From a virus: a stretch of 31,080 bases of DNA. The stretch lies in the IMG/VR virus record IMGVR_UViG_3300043772_000643, positions 1 to 31,080 of that record. One strand, written 5' to 3'. Below the pieces are notes generated by a model. It ran no database searches. It was not told the origin of the DNA and was given only the letters and a program-made list of their open reading frames with translations. Positions 3,266 through 24,436 of the stretch are shown in pieces (positions within the stretch are counted from its first letter, which is position 1; the number at the start of each line of letters is the position of its first letter). A program made the position numbers and the translations under genes.

Positions 3266-3400
3266 TTTCCTTGGGGCGGGGAACGAAATAGGGCGCGCAA
3301 CCACGGAGGGTCAAGACCCATCGCGTTGCCACAAACATAACAGACCAATCCCTATCGACTGACCATGCCCGATAGAGTTGACCTATGCCCTTGTCATGCT

Positions 3401-3442: not shown

Positions 3443-3693
3443 CGATAGACAATATTGCATAGAAAATAACCCTATTGCCCCATGTTAATAAATATACAAG
3501 GGCGCGGGGATTGACAATATACCAATTATCACCCGAGCAACTATCCCTAATAGATTACCTATATCCCTATATACAAGCCAATAGAAAAATATATACCTAT
3601 ATATCTATATGTAGCCCTTGACTTAATACATACATCGACTAACATGTGTACATACGCACTAGCGTATTTCCTAACTAAGCAAAGGGGCATCAA

Positions 3694-4116: not shown

Positions 4117-5007
4117 ATGAAAATTGACATCGCACAACAAATCACTGACCGCATCATTTCCGAGCTAGAAAAAGGGGCTACGCCATGGGTAAAGCCTTGG
4201 CGGTATCTCAAGCAACAACCGGGGCAGGGGATGCCGTTCAATCCTGCCAGCGGCACTGTTTACAGGGGCATCAATCATTTTTGGCTGTCAATGCAACCCT
4301 TTGCAGTTCCTCACTACGTTACGTTCAAGCAAGCGCAAATGCTCGGCGGTAGTGTCTTAGCCGATCAGAAGGGGACACCGGTTGTCTATTGGAATGTTCA
4401 CCGCAAGGAAACAATCGGCGACAAGGGTGAATCTGTTACCAGTGCCTATGCGTTCATCAAACATTACTATGTTTTCAACATAGAACAATGTTCCGGCATT
4501 GAATTACCGCCAATGCCTGAGATACCGGCAGTTGAATGGGATGCTTGCAACGAAGCTGATCAAATAGTTACTCGCTTGCAACTGTCCGGCGGGCTAACTC
4601 ACGCAGGCGATTCCGCTTATTACAGGCCGAGTACTGACGCCATTGTGATGCCACCACAAGCGGCATTCGATACCCGTGAAAATTACTATGCCACTTTGCT
4701 ACACGAATCAGTACACGCAAGCGGTCACGAAAAGCGATTAAAGCGCATTACTCCGGCTAGATTCGGAAGCGAAAATTATGCTTTTGAGGAATTAGTTGCT
4801 GAACTCGGTGCCGCTATGCTTTGCGCCAAATGTGGAATCGACGGCGATTTGCGCCATGCTGGATACATTGAGAATTGGCTACAGGCTTTGCGGAATGATA
4901 AAAAATTCATTCTTTCAGCCGCAGCAAAAGCACAAAATGCCTTGGATTATCTGACTGGTGAGCAAGTGAACGAGACCGAACAAGTAACGGAAGCAATAGC
5001 CGCTTAA
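4117..5007 (+). CDS. ArdC-like antirestriction protein (ssDNA-binding domain plus zincin-like domain)
   Basis: A 296-aa protein with the two-part layout of the ArdC family. The N-terminal domain (about 1-125) has the family's opening helix with EKGATPWVKPW, NPASGTVYRGIN and YVTFKQAQMLGGSV, which in known ArdC proteins binds single-stranded DNA. The C-terminal domain is a zincin-like metallopeptidase fold with LLHESVHASGH (HExxH at 196-200) and FEELVAELGAAML (224-234), giving the third metal ligand. Family members protect incoming plasmid or phage DNA from restriction. All metal ligands appear present. The start follows CTAAGGGGCTAAAC. Its place near the front of the early transcript suits a protein needed just after DNA entry. 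Confidence 0.85.
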   Translation: MKIDIAQQITDRIISELEKGATPWVKPWRYLKQQPGQGMPFNPASGTVYRGINHFWLSMQPFAVPHYVTFKQAQMLGGSVLADQKGTPVVYWNVHRKETIGDKGESVTSAYAFIKHYYVFNIEQCSGIELPPMPEIPAVEWDACNEADQIVTRLQLSGGLTHAGDSAYYRPSTDAIVMPPQAAFDTRENYYATLLHESVHASGHEKRLKRITPARFGSENYAFEELVAELGAAMLCAKCGIDGDLRHAGYIENWLQALRNDKKFILSAAAKAQNALDYLTGEQVNETEQVTEAIAA

Positions 5008-5081: not shown

Positions 5082-5336
5082 ATGATCAAAATAGACCATG
5101 CGCGGATTCTTAATGCTTATCTGGCAAGGCTAACACTAGCAGATATTGACGCCATTCAAGCCGCCAATAGAACATGGGCGTATGCAGCAATGAATCAAAA
5201 TAATTCCTCGTTGTTGGAATGTCAGGCAAGTTTTTATGCCACAGTTGCCAATGCGGTAAATAATTTGATTCAGCACGATATTGCATACATTGAGCAAGTT
5301 ATCAGCGAGGAATTACATTATGCAGACTATACTTGA
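5082..5336 (+). CDS. Small early protein, unknown function
   Basis: An 84-aa, probably all-helical protein: MIKIDHARILNAYLARLT, then a central region with ANRTWAYAAMNQNNSS, and an acidic end SEELHYADYT. It has no cysteine pattern or membrane segment. The ATG is preceded by TTAAGGGGCAATC. Its last codons overlap the start of a 27-residue membrane peptide. No family recognised. Confidence 0.65.
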   Translation: MIKIDHARILNAYLARLTLADIDAIQAANRTWAYAAMNQNNSSLLECQASFYATVANAVNNLIQHDIAYIEQVISEELHYADYT

Positions 5337-5412: not shown

Positions 5413-5583
5413 ATGCAAAAGATTTTTTATCAGATTCGGGAATATAAAACTCCAGTTGCCTATAGCACGCCGTTGGGCCAAAAGCTGCGCCCTCGTTGGC
5501 GTTGCATTAAGCTGATTGCAAGGCTAACCCTTGCGGGGCATCGTGACATCGTGATGGTACCCTTTTCAGTGAATTGTAAATAA
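5413..5583 (+). CDS. Small basic protein, unknown function
   Basis: A 56-aa basic protein, MQKIFYQIREYKTPVAYSTP at the N-terminus, then GQKLRPRWRCIKLIARLT and an end in SVNCK. It has many Arg/Lys and no clear membrane helix. The ATG follows TAAGGGGCTACC. It is the last gene of the first early transcript; a strong terminator begins 25 bp after its stop. No family recognised. Confidence 0.55.
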   Translation: MQKIFYQIREYKTPVAYSTPLGQKLRPRWRCIKLIARLTLAGHRDIVMVPFSVNCK

Positions 5584-5607
5584 GCCTTTTTAAGACGTTT
5601 TCCCCTT

Positions 5608-5633
5608 AGCCGGTACTCTGTACCGGCTTTTTT
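5608..5633 (+). terminator. Rho-independent terminator of the first early operon
   Basis: AGCCGGTAC (5608-5616), loop TCT, and GTACCGGCT (5620-5628) form a perfect 9-bp stem; the top-strand T run covers 5628-5633. Confidence 0.88.
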
Positions 5634-5837
5634 ATTTCCTAGCCTTGTAGCGCGTTTTAATGCGTTTTAGGGGCATTCCTACACTTGCCGGTCAATCCGC
5701 TTTTCAAAAACCCCCTATGCAAAACTCAACCCTAGCTTGTTTGGCAACAAATGCAGGTTCATTCCTTTGACATTTGAATCCTCAAAAAAAATCGGAAATC
5801 ATGTTTCCAAATTGACACGCGCTTACCTATATCTGTA

Positions 5838-6056
5838 GTAACCGTATAGATTTAGAAACCGTATAGGAAAGTAAACGTATAGTCTTAGTAAACGACTATA
5901 CCTATAAGTTTTGAGAGATAGATGTTAGAACGATAGACCCTCGTATACCCATATGACGGTTTACCCTATAGCTATAGTTACCGTATAGCTATAGTAACCG
6001 TATATATATAGGAAACGTATAGCTATACGTTTACTTAGACTATAGTAAACGTATAG
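5838..6056. repeat. Iteron-like array, consensus GTAA(A/C)CGTATAG
   Basis: Copies on the plus strand: 5838-5849, 5855-5866, 5871-5882, 5977-5988, 5994-6005, 6011-6022 and 6045-6056, each within one or two bases of GTAACCGTATAG or GTAAACGTATAG. A reverse-strand copy at 6023-6034 abuts the one at 6011-6022 to form a 24-bp near-perfect palindrome. A diverged copy with an insertion is at 5888-5900, and a diverged reverse copy lies near 5955-5964. Spacing is irregular (about 16-17 bp in several places), and there are no unique spacers of constant length, so this is not CRISPR. Confidence 0.8.
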
Positions 6057-6099
6057 ATATATTTATATAGGTGTTCTACTTGCCAAAAAGAAACAGACT

Positions 6100-6130
6100 A
6101 CTTATCCACAGACTTATCCACAGGGGATAA
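6100..6130. promoter_or_regulatory. Tandem DnaA boxes
   Basis: ACTTATCCACAG is present twice in direct tandem (6100-6111 and 6112-6123). Each copy contains the perfect DnaA box TTATCCACA (6102-6110, 6114-6122). GGGGATAA directly after (6123-6130) is a partial inverted box. This implies use of the host DnaA protein for initiation or regulation. Confidence 0.75.
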
Positions 6131-6160
6131 TGCCTTTCACTCTATCTCTCAAAATAGTTG

Positions 6161-6189
6161 TTGACTTTGTGTATTCTGTGAACTATTGT
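6161..6189 (+). promoter_or_regulatory. Sigma-70-type promoter for the second early operon
   Basis: TTGACT (6161-6166) and TATTGT (6184-6189) are separated by exactly 17 bp, about 49 bp ahead of the first gene start at 6238. It is placed correctly to drive the rightward operon after the origin-like region. Confidence 0.55.
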
Positions 6190-6237
6190 GCGCGTGTGCT
6201 GATGCACATTATCCGTTTCCTAATCAGGGAGGTTCAC

Positions 6238-6423
6238 ATGATTTACACCCATCAGGATCAATTCGATCCTCGTCAAGACACAGACCTTATAGACCGTATC
6301 CGCAAGCAGGAAGCTGCTGCTCAAGCTGCTTTAGACCGTGCTAAAGCGTCTGTTCATCACCTGTCTGCTTCTGTTCTTCGCCTTCGTGAACGCCGTTTCC
6401 AATTGGTAGAACTCGACGCCTAA
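6238..6423 (+). CDS. Small coiled-coil protein, unknown function
   Basis: A 61-aa protein starting MIYTHQDQFDPRQDTDL. From about residue 18 it is a continuous charged helix (IRKQEAAAQAALDRAKASV, then LRLRERRFQLVEL), likely a coiled-coil dimer. The start at 6238 is set by a strong GGGAGG site; an upstream in-frame ATG at 6130 would lie before the promoter. It is the first gene of the second early operon. No family recognised. Confidence 0.65.
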   Translation: MIYTHQDQFDPRQDTDLIDRIRKQEAAAQAALDRAKASVHHLSASVLRLRERRFQLVELDA

Positions 6424-6454
6424 TCCGTTATTCCATCCATCTAGGGGCTTATCC

Positions 6455-6730
6455 ATGACTTACATTAAAGACATCAAACTTTGTGTTGATTGCTTCTTCT
6501 ATGGCAATGAACACGGTCAGAAAGACCGCTGCATCAATCCTGTTACCACGCAAGTTAGCCTAGTCACTGGCAAAGAGGAATTTGACTATTGCTTCGCTCA
6601 ACGCCAGTCTTACAGGGATGGTGACTGTGGGCCTAAAGCTATTTACTTCGTCCTGCACGCTGATAACCGGATCAGCAGAGAGAAAGCCAGACAAGAGTTC
6701 GAAGAGGCCATGCGTGATAGCCCCTTCTGA
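6455..6730 (+). CDS. Small cysteine-containing phage protein, possibly metal-binding
   Basis: A 91-aa protein. The N-terminal half has LCVDCFFYG (CxxC at about residues 10-13), a further Cys at about 26 in KDRCINP, FDYCFAQRQ (Cys about 46) and GDCGP (Cys about 58). The spacing would suit binding of a metal such as zinc, which is an inference. The C-terminal helix ISREKARQEFEEAMRD is charged. Short proteins of this make-up are frequent in phage early regions. The start follows CTAGGGGCTTATCC. Its end overlaps the likely GTG start of the next gene by 17 bp. Confidence 0.65.
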   Translation: MTYIKDIKLCVDCFFYGNEHGQKDRCINPVTTQVSLVTGKEEFDYCFAQRQSYRDGDCGPKAIYFVLHADNRISREKARQEFEEAMRDSPF

Positions 6731-8849: not shown

Positions 8850-9687
8850 CGTAGTCAACATGGCAGGGGAGTCGGCAATGGTCGCACTTGATCCTGCTAT
8901 CCAATCATCCATTGTGTTGCGTGGTGACTTATCTGGACTGAACGAGGATCAGAAGAAAGAGTATTACTTGTATCGCTGCCGCCAAGTTGGTCTTGATCCA
9001 GCCGCTAAACCCTTTGACTTGCTAACACTCAATGGAAAACAAATCCTTTACGCGAACGCAGGAGCTACTCAACAGCTTTGTGCGCTCCACAAACTTTCCA
9101 CTCAGATTACGCATCGGGAACGTGTGGATGGAATTTACATTGTCTCCGTCCGATGCACGGGCGCTGACGGTAGAGTTTCAGAAAATCAAGGCGCAGTGGA
9201 TGTTTCAACCCTTGTCGGCGAGAGATTGGCTAATGCCATCCTTAAAGCGACTACGAAAGCAATACGCAGGTCGGTTCTTGCACATTGTGGACTCGGAATG
9301 CTTGATGAAACTGAAGTTGAAACCATCCCGGAAGCGCGTAAAGAGCCTCTGATCGTACCGCAAGCAGTCGCACCCATCGAAGTACCTGCACCACCACCAA
9401 AGCCCACCACAGGCGTGGCTTTCATGGTGCCGGGAAAGACCGAAGCCTATGCCTACCATGCCAACGACGATGAGTTTGTCAATGGCTACTTGGATATGGT
9501 CACAAGCATCATGGCAAGCGGGAAGCTAAACGCTGCCGAGAAGCTGGCAAAGATCACAGCACTAGAAGGCGCTAATGACTTTGTGCTTGGCATGATTGAA
9601 GCTGAGAAGCCAGTGCTGTTCGAGGTATGGACTAAGGGCGTGAAAAGGGCGAAGGAGGATTGCGATCAGCAGATAAAAAAGGGTTGA
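8842..9687 (+). CDS. Putative ssDNA-annealing recombinase (phage RecT/Rad52-like role)
   Basis: A 281-aa protein. The N-terminal 180 residues match a pattern seen in phage proteins paired with YqaJ exonucleases: DQKKEYYLYRCRQVGLDP, then KPFDLLTLNGKQILYANAGA, GADGRVSENQGAVDVSTLVG, and ANAILKATTKAIRRSVLAHC followed by GLGMLDETEV. A proline-rich linker (APIEVPAPPPKP) leads to a small helical C-terminal domain. The expected role is annealing the single strands made by the exonuclease. The start at 8842 is set by TTGGAGGTG; an upstream in-frame ATG at 8821 is inside the previous gene. The role is inferred from pattern and context; the fold was not tested. Confidence 0.6.
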   Translation: MSNVVNMAGESAMVALDPAIQSSIVLRGDLSGLNEDQKKEYYLYRCRQVGLDPAAKPFDLLTLNGKQILYANAGATQQLCALHKLSTQITHRERVDGIYIVSVRCTGADGRVSENQGAVDVSTLVGERLANAILKATTKAIRRSVLAHCGLGMLDETEVETIPEARKEPLIVPQAVAPIEVPAPPPKPTTGVAFMVPGKTEAYAYHANDDEFVNGYLDMVTSIMASGKLNAAEKLAKITALEGANDFVLGMIEAEKPVLFEVWTKGVKRAKEDCDQQIKKG

Positions 9688-9923
9688 AGCCAGCCAGCGG
9701 CAAGGGGCAATCAGCCATGATCCTCGATCACTTGCAGCAAGGTGATGGCATTACAGCCCTTGATAGCCTAAGACTGTACGGCGTGCTACGGCTGGCGGCA
9801 CGCATTGAAGAACTTAGGAAAGATGGACACACCATCGTGACGCAAACGGTGCGTGTTGGCAGGAAAGAGATAGCACGTTATTCATTAGTTAAGGAGAAGC
9901 AACATGGATCGACCAGACATTGA
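9660..9923 (+). CDS. Winged helix-turn-helix protein (phage HTH domain)
   Basis: An 87-aa frame. The domain GQSAMILDHLQQGDGITALD, SLRLYGVLRLAARIEELRKD and a C-terminal strand pair (VGRKEIARYSLV) looks like the small helix-turn-helix family (PF14090-type) often found by phage replication genes. The start is unclear: TTG 9660 has GAAGGAGG too close, TTG 9684 overlaps the previous stop, and ATG 9717 is preceded by AAGGGGCAATCAGCC, this phage's usual site, but would cut the first helix. I list the longest form. It may act as a regulator or replication accessory factor. Confidence 0.65.
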   Translation: MRSADKKGLKPASGKGQSAMILDHLQQGDGITALDSLRLYGVLRLAARIEELRKDGHTIVTQTVRVGRKEIARYSLVKEKQHGSTRH

Positions 9924-23021: not shown

Positions 23022-24146
23022 TTACCTCACTGGGTCAAAGATTGCTGCGGAATACACATTACCCATTCCAGCGGCAAGACTAAGGATCAGCCCATCAGGA
23101 GTCTCGCAGTCTTCAGACAGAAAAATATCGTCTTTTTCTGTCCGGTTAGGAATAGCAGGTACAACACCATAAACCAGATTGTCAAGCAAAAGTAGCGTTT
23201 CTAGCAAGCCCGAAGCGCCCATTGTGTGACCTATTTTTGGTTTAAATGACGTTGCCACGAAATCACTTAAAGTGTTCATCAATGCTAACTTTTCAGACAC
23301 GTTGTTGGACTCCGTGCCAGTGCCGTGTGTCTTTACAATTTTGATGTCAGTTGGGAACACTTCTCCATACCGCATGGCACCTTCAATAGCATCTACATAG
23401 CCCGTGCCATCAGGCGCTTGACCTATGGCATTGTTCCATTTCTCTGCCGCATGGTAGGCACCTACCAGCCTAGCTTTTGGGGTCAGACCATAGTGGTTGA
23501 TCTCACCTTCTGTTTGCAAAACAGCAAAGGCAGCGCCTTGACCAACGTAAAAGCCGCCGTTTGTACTGTCAAAGGCGCTAGGCTTAATGTCTTTCTTAGT
23601 TTCTTCAGCCAAGGTTAGGCAGGCACCTGAATCACCAAAGAATTGCAAAACGGAATTAGATACAGCGTCTTCTACCGACAGGATAATGAAACGGGTAAAA
23701 CCAAAGGCTTCCAGCATCAAGCAGTCCATCATGACTTTAAGGCTAGAGGCGCAAGCAGAAGAGTCAGTGGCAATGTAATCGGGTTTGCAGATCATATTTG
23801 CCAGCCTGCCAGCCATGACTTGCGTTAAGGAAAACGGCAGAAACTTGTAGATATAGTGAAGCTGCGTGTGTACTTGGTTATCTTTGGCATTGATGCCAGC
23901 AAAGTGAGCGTTGCCTGCCGCCAGAATAAAAGCAGTCTTGCCTAGTGCCGGATTTTCCCGCAGCCATTCCAGCGTTGCTGGTGCCATCACCATGTTGGCA
24001 AGATTATGCGGAGCATACTTAAAGCCTTGTTTAGTGCCTTGGTAACTTTCCGGTATGAAATGCACACGCTGTGGGTGCAAAATGTCTTCCATCAGCGTGG
24101 TTTGTGGGTTGGATACGGTATGCCCGTAGGTTAGGAATAGGCTCAT
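23022..24146 (-). CDS. Phage-encoded beta-ketoacyl-ACP synthase (KAS) homologue
   Basis: A 374-aa thiolase-fold enzyme of the KAS I/II (FabB/FabF-like) type, which extends acyl chains on acyl carrier protein by condensation with malonyl-ACP. Catalytic residues are visible: Cys132 in ATDSSACASSLKV, His274 in VKTHGTGTESNN, Lys302 and His307 in SFKPKIGHTMGASGLLE. The C-terminal SLAAGMGNVYSAAIF replaces the usual GFGG loop. It is shorter than bacterial FabF (about 410 aa) and the N-terminus is atypical, so it is a divergent lineage. It overlaps the upstream acyl-carrier-protein gene by ATGA, so both are made together. The product is unknown: fatty acyl, beta-keto compound or acylated protein. Confidence 0.88.
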   Translation of the reverse strand: MSLFLTYGHTVSNPQTTLMEDILHPQRVHFIPESYQGTKQGFKYAPHNLANMVMAPATLEWLRENPALGKTAFILAAGNAHFAGINAKDNQVHTQLHYIYKFLPFSLTQVMAGRLANMICKPDYIATDSSACASSLKVMMDCLMLEAFGFTRFIILSVEDAVSNSVLQFFGDSGACLTLAEETKKDIKPSAFDSTNGGFYVGQGAAFAVLQTEGEINHYGLTPKARLVGAYHAAEKWNNAIGQAPDGTGYVDAIEGAMRYGEVFPTDIKIVKTHGTGTESNNVSEKLALMNTLSDFVATSFKPKIGHTMGASGLLETLLLLDNLVYGVVPAIPNRTEKDDIFLSEDCETPDGLILSLAAGMGNVYSAAIFDPVR

Positions 24147-24436
24147 TGCATCACCGCTATGGCTGAATTGACATCAAAACCTTCTACAGTCGCATTAGCC
24201 ACCAGAAAGTCTTTCATTTCACGCAAGTTTGCTGGCCTCATTTCTTTGCCAACCTCTTCTGGTACGGCAAAAGCATCACACAAGTACATAGCAATTATCA
24301 ATAAATCTAGGCTATCAACATCAATAGTTTCAAAGCCAGAATCTATTTGTTCGGCATTGACCGTTGGCTTTCCCATTGGTTTAGCCAGTGCCATTGCGGT
24401 GTTAAACAGCCGCAAGAAGTCTTCATCGGAAATCAT
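24143..24436 (-). CDS. Phage-encoded acyl carrier protein
   Basis: A 97-aa ACP, close to the usual 80-90 aa. The phosphopantetheine site is Ser42 in IDVDSLDLLIIAMYLCDAFA (residues 38-57), with the classic D-S-L and the amphipathic recognition helix after it. A helix before (LRLFNTAMALAKPM) and a last helix (ANLREMKDFLVANATV) complete the four-helix bundle. Helix II is less acidic than in bacterial AcpP, which may narrow its partners to its own synthase. It needs a holo-ACP synthase, none seen here, so host AcpS is implied. It overlaps both the gene upstream and the synthase gene downstream by ATGA. Confidence 0.85.
   Translation of the reverse strand: MISDEDFLRLFNTAMALAKPMGKPTVNAEQIDSGFETIDVDSLDLLIIAMYLCDAFAVPEEVGKEMRPANLREMKDFLVANATVEGFDVNSAIAVMQ

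Follow-up and report, generated by a model that had tools for sequence, protein, structure and literature searches.

A non-coding region resembling an iteron plasmid origin, with tandem DnaA boxes, in a freshwater phage lineage

Phage replication origins that combine iterons with DnaA boxes are known from phages that live as plasmids; phages of the lambda type bring their own O and P proteins, and T5 carries its own replication genes. The lambda origin is not known to use DnaA boxes. Plasmid origins are defined by iterons, AT-rich DNA, and DnaA sites, and the lambda origin can be activated by an outward-reading promoter downstream of it (PMC5043065, PMC4980987). As a rule, the iterons of plasmids follow the phase of the DNA helix (PMC5043065), and ori lambda is described as having iterons that adjoin AT-rich DNA and as being activated by an early promoter close by (PMC5043065, PMC7466680). 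In Salmonella genomic island 1 (SGI1), oriV combines four iterons of 17 bp with a putative DnaA box and AT-rich DNA, and replication from it has been tested experimentally (PMC7433901).

The window analyzed here is a whole virus record of 31,080 bases from a virus that infects freshwater bacteria. It is a fragment, in which the left end truncates a terminase gene and from which ∼5 kb carrying the portal and capsid genes are missing by comparison with a relative of 36,037 bases with 45-bp identical ends (G003). The tail and lysis genes of the window read leftward, and the early region reads rightward in the order ArdC-like protein (4117-5007), non-coding gap, small unknown genes, YqaJ-type exonuclease, RecT-like protein, winged-helix protein, SSB-like protein, and RusA-like resolvase. 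The RecT-like annealing protein is taken for one from its own sequence, without a database match. The non-coding DNA at 5820-6240 is probably the replication origin of this phage, organized in the style of an iteron plasmid, from which host-dependent, theta-type replication would start through DnaA and a phage repeat-binding protein. The features of the region, and one related cluster upstream of it, are as follows.

3555-3609, no strand: second TACCTATA cluster, upstream of the ArdC operon promoter
5580-6238: non-coding gap
5608-5637, + strand: terminator-like hairpin at 5608-5628 with a T-run, at the end of the upstream (ArdC) operon and marking the left edge of the non-coding DNA
5823-6075, no strand: array of TACCTATA-type sites and 17-bp-phased repeats (iteron candidates), from the sequence
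5838-5849, + strand: repeat 1, GTAACCGTATAG, repeat scan
5855-5866, + strand: repeat 2, GAAACCGTATAG, repeat scan
5871-5882, + strand: repeat 3, GTAAACGTATAG, repeat scan
5909-5922, + strand: left arm, TTTTGAGAGATAGA, of a perfect 14-bp inverted repeat
5977-5988, + strand: repeat 4, GTTACCGTATAG, repeat scan
5994-6005, + strand: repeat 5, GTAACCGTATAT, repeat scan
6001-6060, no strand: lowest DNA stability in the region, candidate unwinding element, with TATAGATATATTTATATAG-like sequence in clades A, B, and F1, stability scan
6011-6022, + strand: repeat 6, GGAAACGTATAG, left arm of the near-palindrome, repeat scan
6023-6034, - strand: repeat 7 (inverted), GTAAACGTATAG, right arm of the near-palindrome, repeat scan
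6045-6056, + strand: repeat 8, GTAAACGTATAG, repeat scan
6102-6110, + strand: DnaA box 1, TTATCCACA
6114-6122, + strand: DnaA box 2, TTATCCACA, 12 bp after box 1
6141-6154, - strand: right arm of the TTTTGAGAGATAGA inverted repeat, just before the promoter
6161-6189, + strand: sigma-70-like early promoter TTGACT-17-TATTGT, reading away from the array, promoter scan
6195-6208, + strand: dyad TGTGCTGATGCACA in the early leader, conserved in clades A-E, with no second exact copy in the window
6238-6423, + strand: 61-aa protein, probably a coiled coil (by eye), the first gene after the region in clades A-E, with a similar protein in clade F

Eight copies of the GTAAMCGTATAG repeat family, each with no more than 2 mismatches, lie at 5838-6056, seven on the + strand and one inverted. 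They were located by a scan with the queries GTAACCGTATAG and GTAAACGTATAG, allowing up to 2 mismatches, that returned only a few scattered matches outside the array in the 31 kb. The biggest 12-mer family in 5838-6130 at this threshold has 8 members, compared with 2-5 in 200 dinucleotide-preserving shuffles, and the repeat spacing is mostly 17 bp, with a lag-17 autocorrelation of 52 against a shuffle 99th percentile of 12. Repeats 6 and 7 form a near-palindrome whose inverted arms (6010-6022 and 6023-6035) are 92% complementary with zero gap. Sites of the TACCTATA type extend the array leftward to 5823, making it slightly longer than first stated, and no ORF of 60 aa or more lies inside it. 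The region has a GC content of 33.8%, compared with 47.7% for the window, and only one other 60-bp stretch of the window is less stable than 6001-6060, which lies ∼4 SD from the mean. The tandem boxes, at 6102-6110 and 6114-6122, are the only exact TTATCCACA boxes in the window and are formed by two perfect copies of ACTTATCCACAG in a 12-bp tandem. The elements named in the first-pass annotation, which comprised at least seven near-identical 12-bp repeats, a 24-bp near-palindrome made by two of them, AT-rich sequence, and two perfect boxes in a 12-bp tandem, were thus all recovered, the repeats in a number that the shuffles, never exceeding 5, did not reach.

The TTTTGAGAGATAGA inverted repeat, of which the window holds only two copies, flanks the right half of the array together with the boxes and is kept in clades A-C. 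The promoter scan overall gave no more matches than shuffled sequence, while TTGACT-17-TATTGT is conserved in most clades. No clear series of DnaA-trios was seen by eye in 6123-6160, on the 3' side of the tandem boxes. No match to the IHF consensus occurs within 5500-6500, and the 61-aa protein had no family match of note.

Relatives were collected through IMG/VR scans, in which the YqaJ protein retrieved 80 loci and the ArdC protein 54. Thirty-eight YqaJ loci, picked regardless of boxes, have at least 3.6 kb of upstream sequence, and in 34 of them the tandem boxes (at most 1 mismatch) occupy the same place and orientation; shuffles gave none even at 3 mismatches. The boxes always lie upstream of YqaJ and co-oriented with it, including in relatives of 40-44% YqaJ identity among the box-pattern matches listed. 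Across 18 aligned clade representatives, no 20-bp stretch is better conserved than that of the boxes, at 96% against a mean of 40%, a figure that overstates their conservation because the representatives were selected for having boxes. The order of the elements, namely phased array, unstable right end, tandem boxes 12 bp apart, and outward promoter-like site, is kept in relatives as well. The repeat sequences differ between clades A to H, and the array is not helix-phased, its period by autocorrelation being 17 bp in clades A, B, C, and E, 18 bp in D and H, and 19 bp in G; the clade F array has only longer lags, of 36-44 bp. A core, ATACCTATA (at most 1 mismatch), recurs in 9 of 9 class representatives with a score of 31, compared with no more than 17 in shuffles, from which we infer that it marks where a single, drifting DNA-binding protein binds.

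Two close relatives are exceptions to this pattern. In L034 (YqaJ 96-97%), ∼50 bp including both boxes are deleted at its positions 5240-5270, with array and promoter kept, and L037 (YqaJ 96%) lacks boxes and array alike in its 12.3 kb. Both cases could reflect true variation, chimeras, or errors of assembly, and the loss of both boxes in L034 means that they may not be strictly essential. The tandem boxes are also absent from the distant complete relatives MW202753 and MW202825. In viral contigs generally, the tandem-box pattern gave at least 120 matches against ∼1 expected by chance, given a collection of an assumed size of some 3e10 bases. Since tandem boxes are frequent in viral contigs and identical in T5-like phages, the boxes alone are not special; the special feature is their conserved combination with the other elements.

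When the tandem-box query was compared with plasmids, the few matches included replication loci of Methylomagnum, Methylocystis, and Limimaricola plasmids. The box adjoins a gene annotated as a replication protein in the Methylomagnum plasmid, the Limimaricola locus has replication initiator protein A, and short repeats can be read beside the boxes at all three loci. With iteron plasmid origins (P1 oriR, F, RK2 oriV, pSC101, Methylomagnum pRS11DPr1, Methylocystis pMpar-1, and the Limimaricola plasmid), the phage region shares phased direct repeats, an AT-rich melting region, and DnaA boxes, and the position of the repeats, 5' of TTATCCACA-type boxes, is common to the phage, the Methylomagnum and Methylocystis plasmids, and R388 (IncW). 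It differs from these origins in that the phage has no recognized Rep gene, in its period of 17-19 bp, which is out of helix phase, and in a repeat sequence that turns over between clades. Because its layout matches that of the plasmid loci, the region has the appearance of an iteron plasmid origin and probably functions as one, though membership of the iteron-plasmid family is not claimed, given that no Rep was found and that the period is out of helix phase. A direct match of the array to plasmid iterons was considered and rejected, as mainly the boxes match and not the repeats. Between the Methylomagnum repeat GCTATAACTACCG and the phage repeat GCTATAGTTACCG, 11 of 13 bases agree, a resemblance that is possibly a coincidence. 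At positions 2300-2525 of the Methylomagnum plasmid locus (L257), repeats with GTCAGCTATAACTACC accompany a T-tract and a 22-bp tandem box identical to that of the phage.

Among phage origins, the lambda type shares with this region iterons beside AT-rich DNA and a nearby early promoter (PMC5043065, PMC7466680). The phage differs from lambda in having no O family gene (0 of 6 records), in that its region is non-coding and not within an O gene, and in the presence of DnaA boxes. The SGI1 oriV is a mobile-element origin that resembles the phage region in its 17-bp iterons, putative DnaA box, and AT-rich DNA; it differs in having its own rep gene beside it and in its GC-rich iterons. In T5-like phages, the 26-27-bp tandem box sequence is identical in several genomes and lies near or in the terminal repeat, but the T5-like stretch examined has no evident phased array by eye, unlike the region described here.

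Six records, the window and five relatives measuring 35.5-37.5 kb, were searched with profiles; Rep_3 (Rep3_N), Phage_rep_O, DnaB_C, DNA_pol_A, and integrase were detected in none of them, with controls matched. Among the genes scanned against Pfam, PHROGs, and NCBIfam, no replication initiator, helicase, primase, or other replisome gene came to light. The lineage is apparently non-integrating, and the phage possibly encodes an initiator of an unrecognized family. As neither the phage nor its near-complete relatives have a recognizable replication protein, the host machinery is probably borrowed. In the proposed mechanism, host DnaA would bind the tandem boxes, a phage repeat-binding protein would load on the array, and together they would melt the AT-rich DNA at ∼6001-6075. 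Transcription from the 6161-6189 promoter would leave negative supercoils behind it and so aid melting, as in lambda. Host DnaB helicase and replisome would be loaded next, since the phage has no recognizable ones of its own, and the YqaJ exonuclease, RecT-like annealing protein, and RusA-like resolvase may then support concatemer formation. The kept placement, repeats that change from clade to clade under a period kept in most of them, the likeness of the three plasmid loci, and the absence of own replication genes together lend good support to the origin first suggested for this region, although they fall short of proof. The check by GC skew that accompanied the suggestion was run on the window and seven relatives and proved uninformative, because the skew follows the coding strand and does not single out the region.

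Two proteins had been put forward as readers of the repeats. The XRE protein of the L097/L101 type is 60% identical to that of the window, as against 90% identity for the L097 array, and in clade B the repeat core persists although XRE identity is ∼41%. Since XRE changes freely while the array does not, this missing co-variation makes it an unlikely binder, and the proposal was set aside. The hypervariability of this protein (2750-2983) among otherwise close relatives could reflect phage-phage immunity or exclusion. The other protein is encoded as follows.

9660-9923, + strand: winged-helix protein (Pfam HTH_39), 87 aa, candidate repeat binder

The winged-helix protein is present in those loci with 17-19-bp arrays that have a complete RecT-SSB stretch, and clade F loci lack it and have other proteins in its place. 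This tracking, which involves few independent events, is suggestive of a repeat binder, and the protein is the best candidate for that role. Its helix-turn-helix core is, however, unchanged between clades A and E while the repeats change, so the earlier suggestion is upheld by the co-occurrence with the arrays and weakened by the fixed core, leaving the protein only a candidate that could also be tied to replication in another way. No credible match to solved structures was obtained for the winged-helix and RecT-like families. A bolder proposal, which we regard as rather doubtful and put forward tentatively, is that this ∼36-kb lineage has an iteron/DnaA-box origin without an initiator of the Rep or O/P type, in which host DnaA and a tiny single-domain winged-helix protein (61-87 aa) would be the entire initiation system, with fast-changing repeats and fixed boxes. 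The region matters in that an apparently non-integrating lineage has a plasmid layout but lacks every known initiator family that was searched for. Should the proposed mechanism hold, replication here would hijack host DnaA directly, and the clade series, in which the boxes stay fixed and the period is kept while the repeats change, offers a natural experiment for finding the protein that reads the repeats.

Other readings of the region place no origin here, or one without a phage initiator. At least eight phased sites are unusual for an operator, but a phage regulator bound to the 17-bp repeats might control the 6161-6189 promoter and, via the second cluster, the ArdC operon promoter, with the origin lying elsewhere. 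The TACCTATA sites that carry the repeat core cluster at just two places in the window, the array and 3555-3609, both upstream of early promoters and with a similar distribution in relatives; their position upstream of the ArdC operon promoter means that a regulator fits too, and a regulator-type protein (XRE) is encoded nearby. In this regulon comparison the core shared by the two early promoters is short and AT-rich. We consider an operator array unlikely, as XRE varies freely while the array does not, the boxes and plasmid-like layout are left unexplained, and the array, spanning ∼230 bp, stops ∼100 bp short of the promoter. Host DnaA at 6102-6122 could instead tune the early promoter to the replication state of the host and open no origin at all, in keeping with box 2 ending ∼40 bp before the -35 hexamer and with the stimulation of the lambda pR promoter by DnaA (cited in PMC7466680). 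Such a switch is quite improbable, since clades G and H retain the boxes without a clear promoter in the alignment, since it would explain neither the phased array nor the unstable DNA on the far side of the boxes, and since at the three plasmid loci the boxes adjoin repeats and a rep gene.

The region might also be an origin opened by DnaA alone, as in oriC, with the repeats merely easily melted or bent DNA and not sites of a phage protein. The tandem boxes with their 3-bp spacing match a known oriC unwinding module (PMC8287927), and no initiator gene was found in the profile searches of six records. The repeats nevertheless keep their period and a shared core, which plain melting would not need. 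The E. coli unwinding element is on the 3' side of box R1, opposite to the layout here, where the low-stability stretch precedes the boxes on their 5' side, and an origin of this kind is judged very improbable. An iteron-style origin read by both DnaA and a phage protein remains the favored reading.

No relative of the 1.2-kb region was found at the DNA level in a phage collection, a literature search with limited terms found no paper on such a phage group, and no known RNA families or tRNAs were found. The search of bacterial genomes for relatives returned a single match, L134 (JAGYJQ010000016.1; YqaJ 71%), a 37.6-kb contig in a Balneolaceae MAG; this contig is probably a misbinned phage and so was not taken to indicate the host. 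A beta-ketoacyl synthase (Ketoacyl-synt_C, 5.5e-14) is encoded at 23022-24146 amid the tail gene block, also in relatives G001, G002, and G004, and is adjoined at 24143-24436 by a small protein that by eye is acyl carrier protein-like. Upstream of the leftward terminase operon, a non-coding element at 3268-3310 (CCTTGGGGCGGGGA..GAAATAGGGCGCGCAACC) occurs in all clades seen, is duplicated in some, and is a candidate packaging (cos/pac) site.
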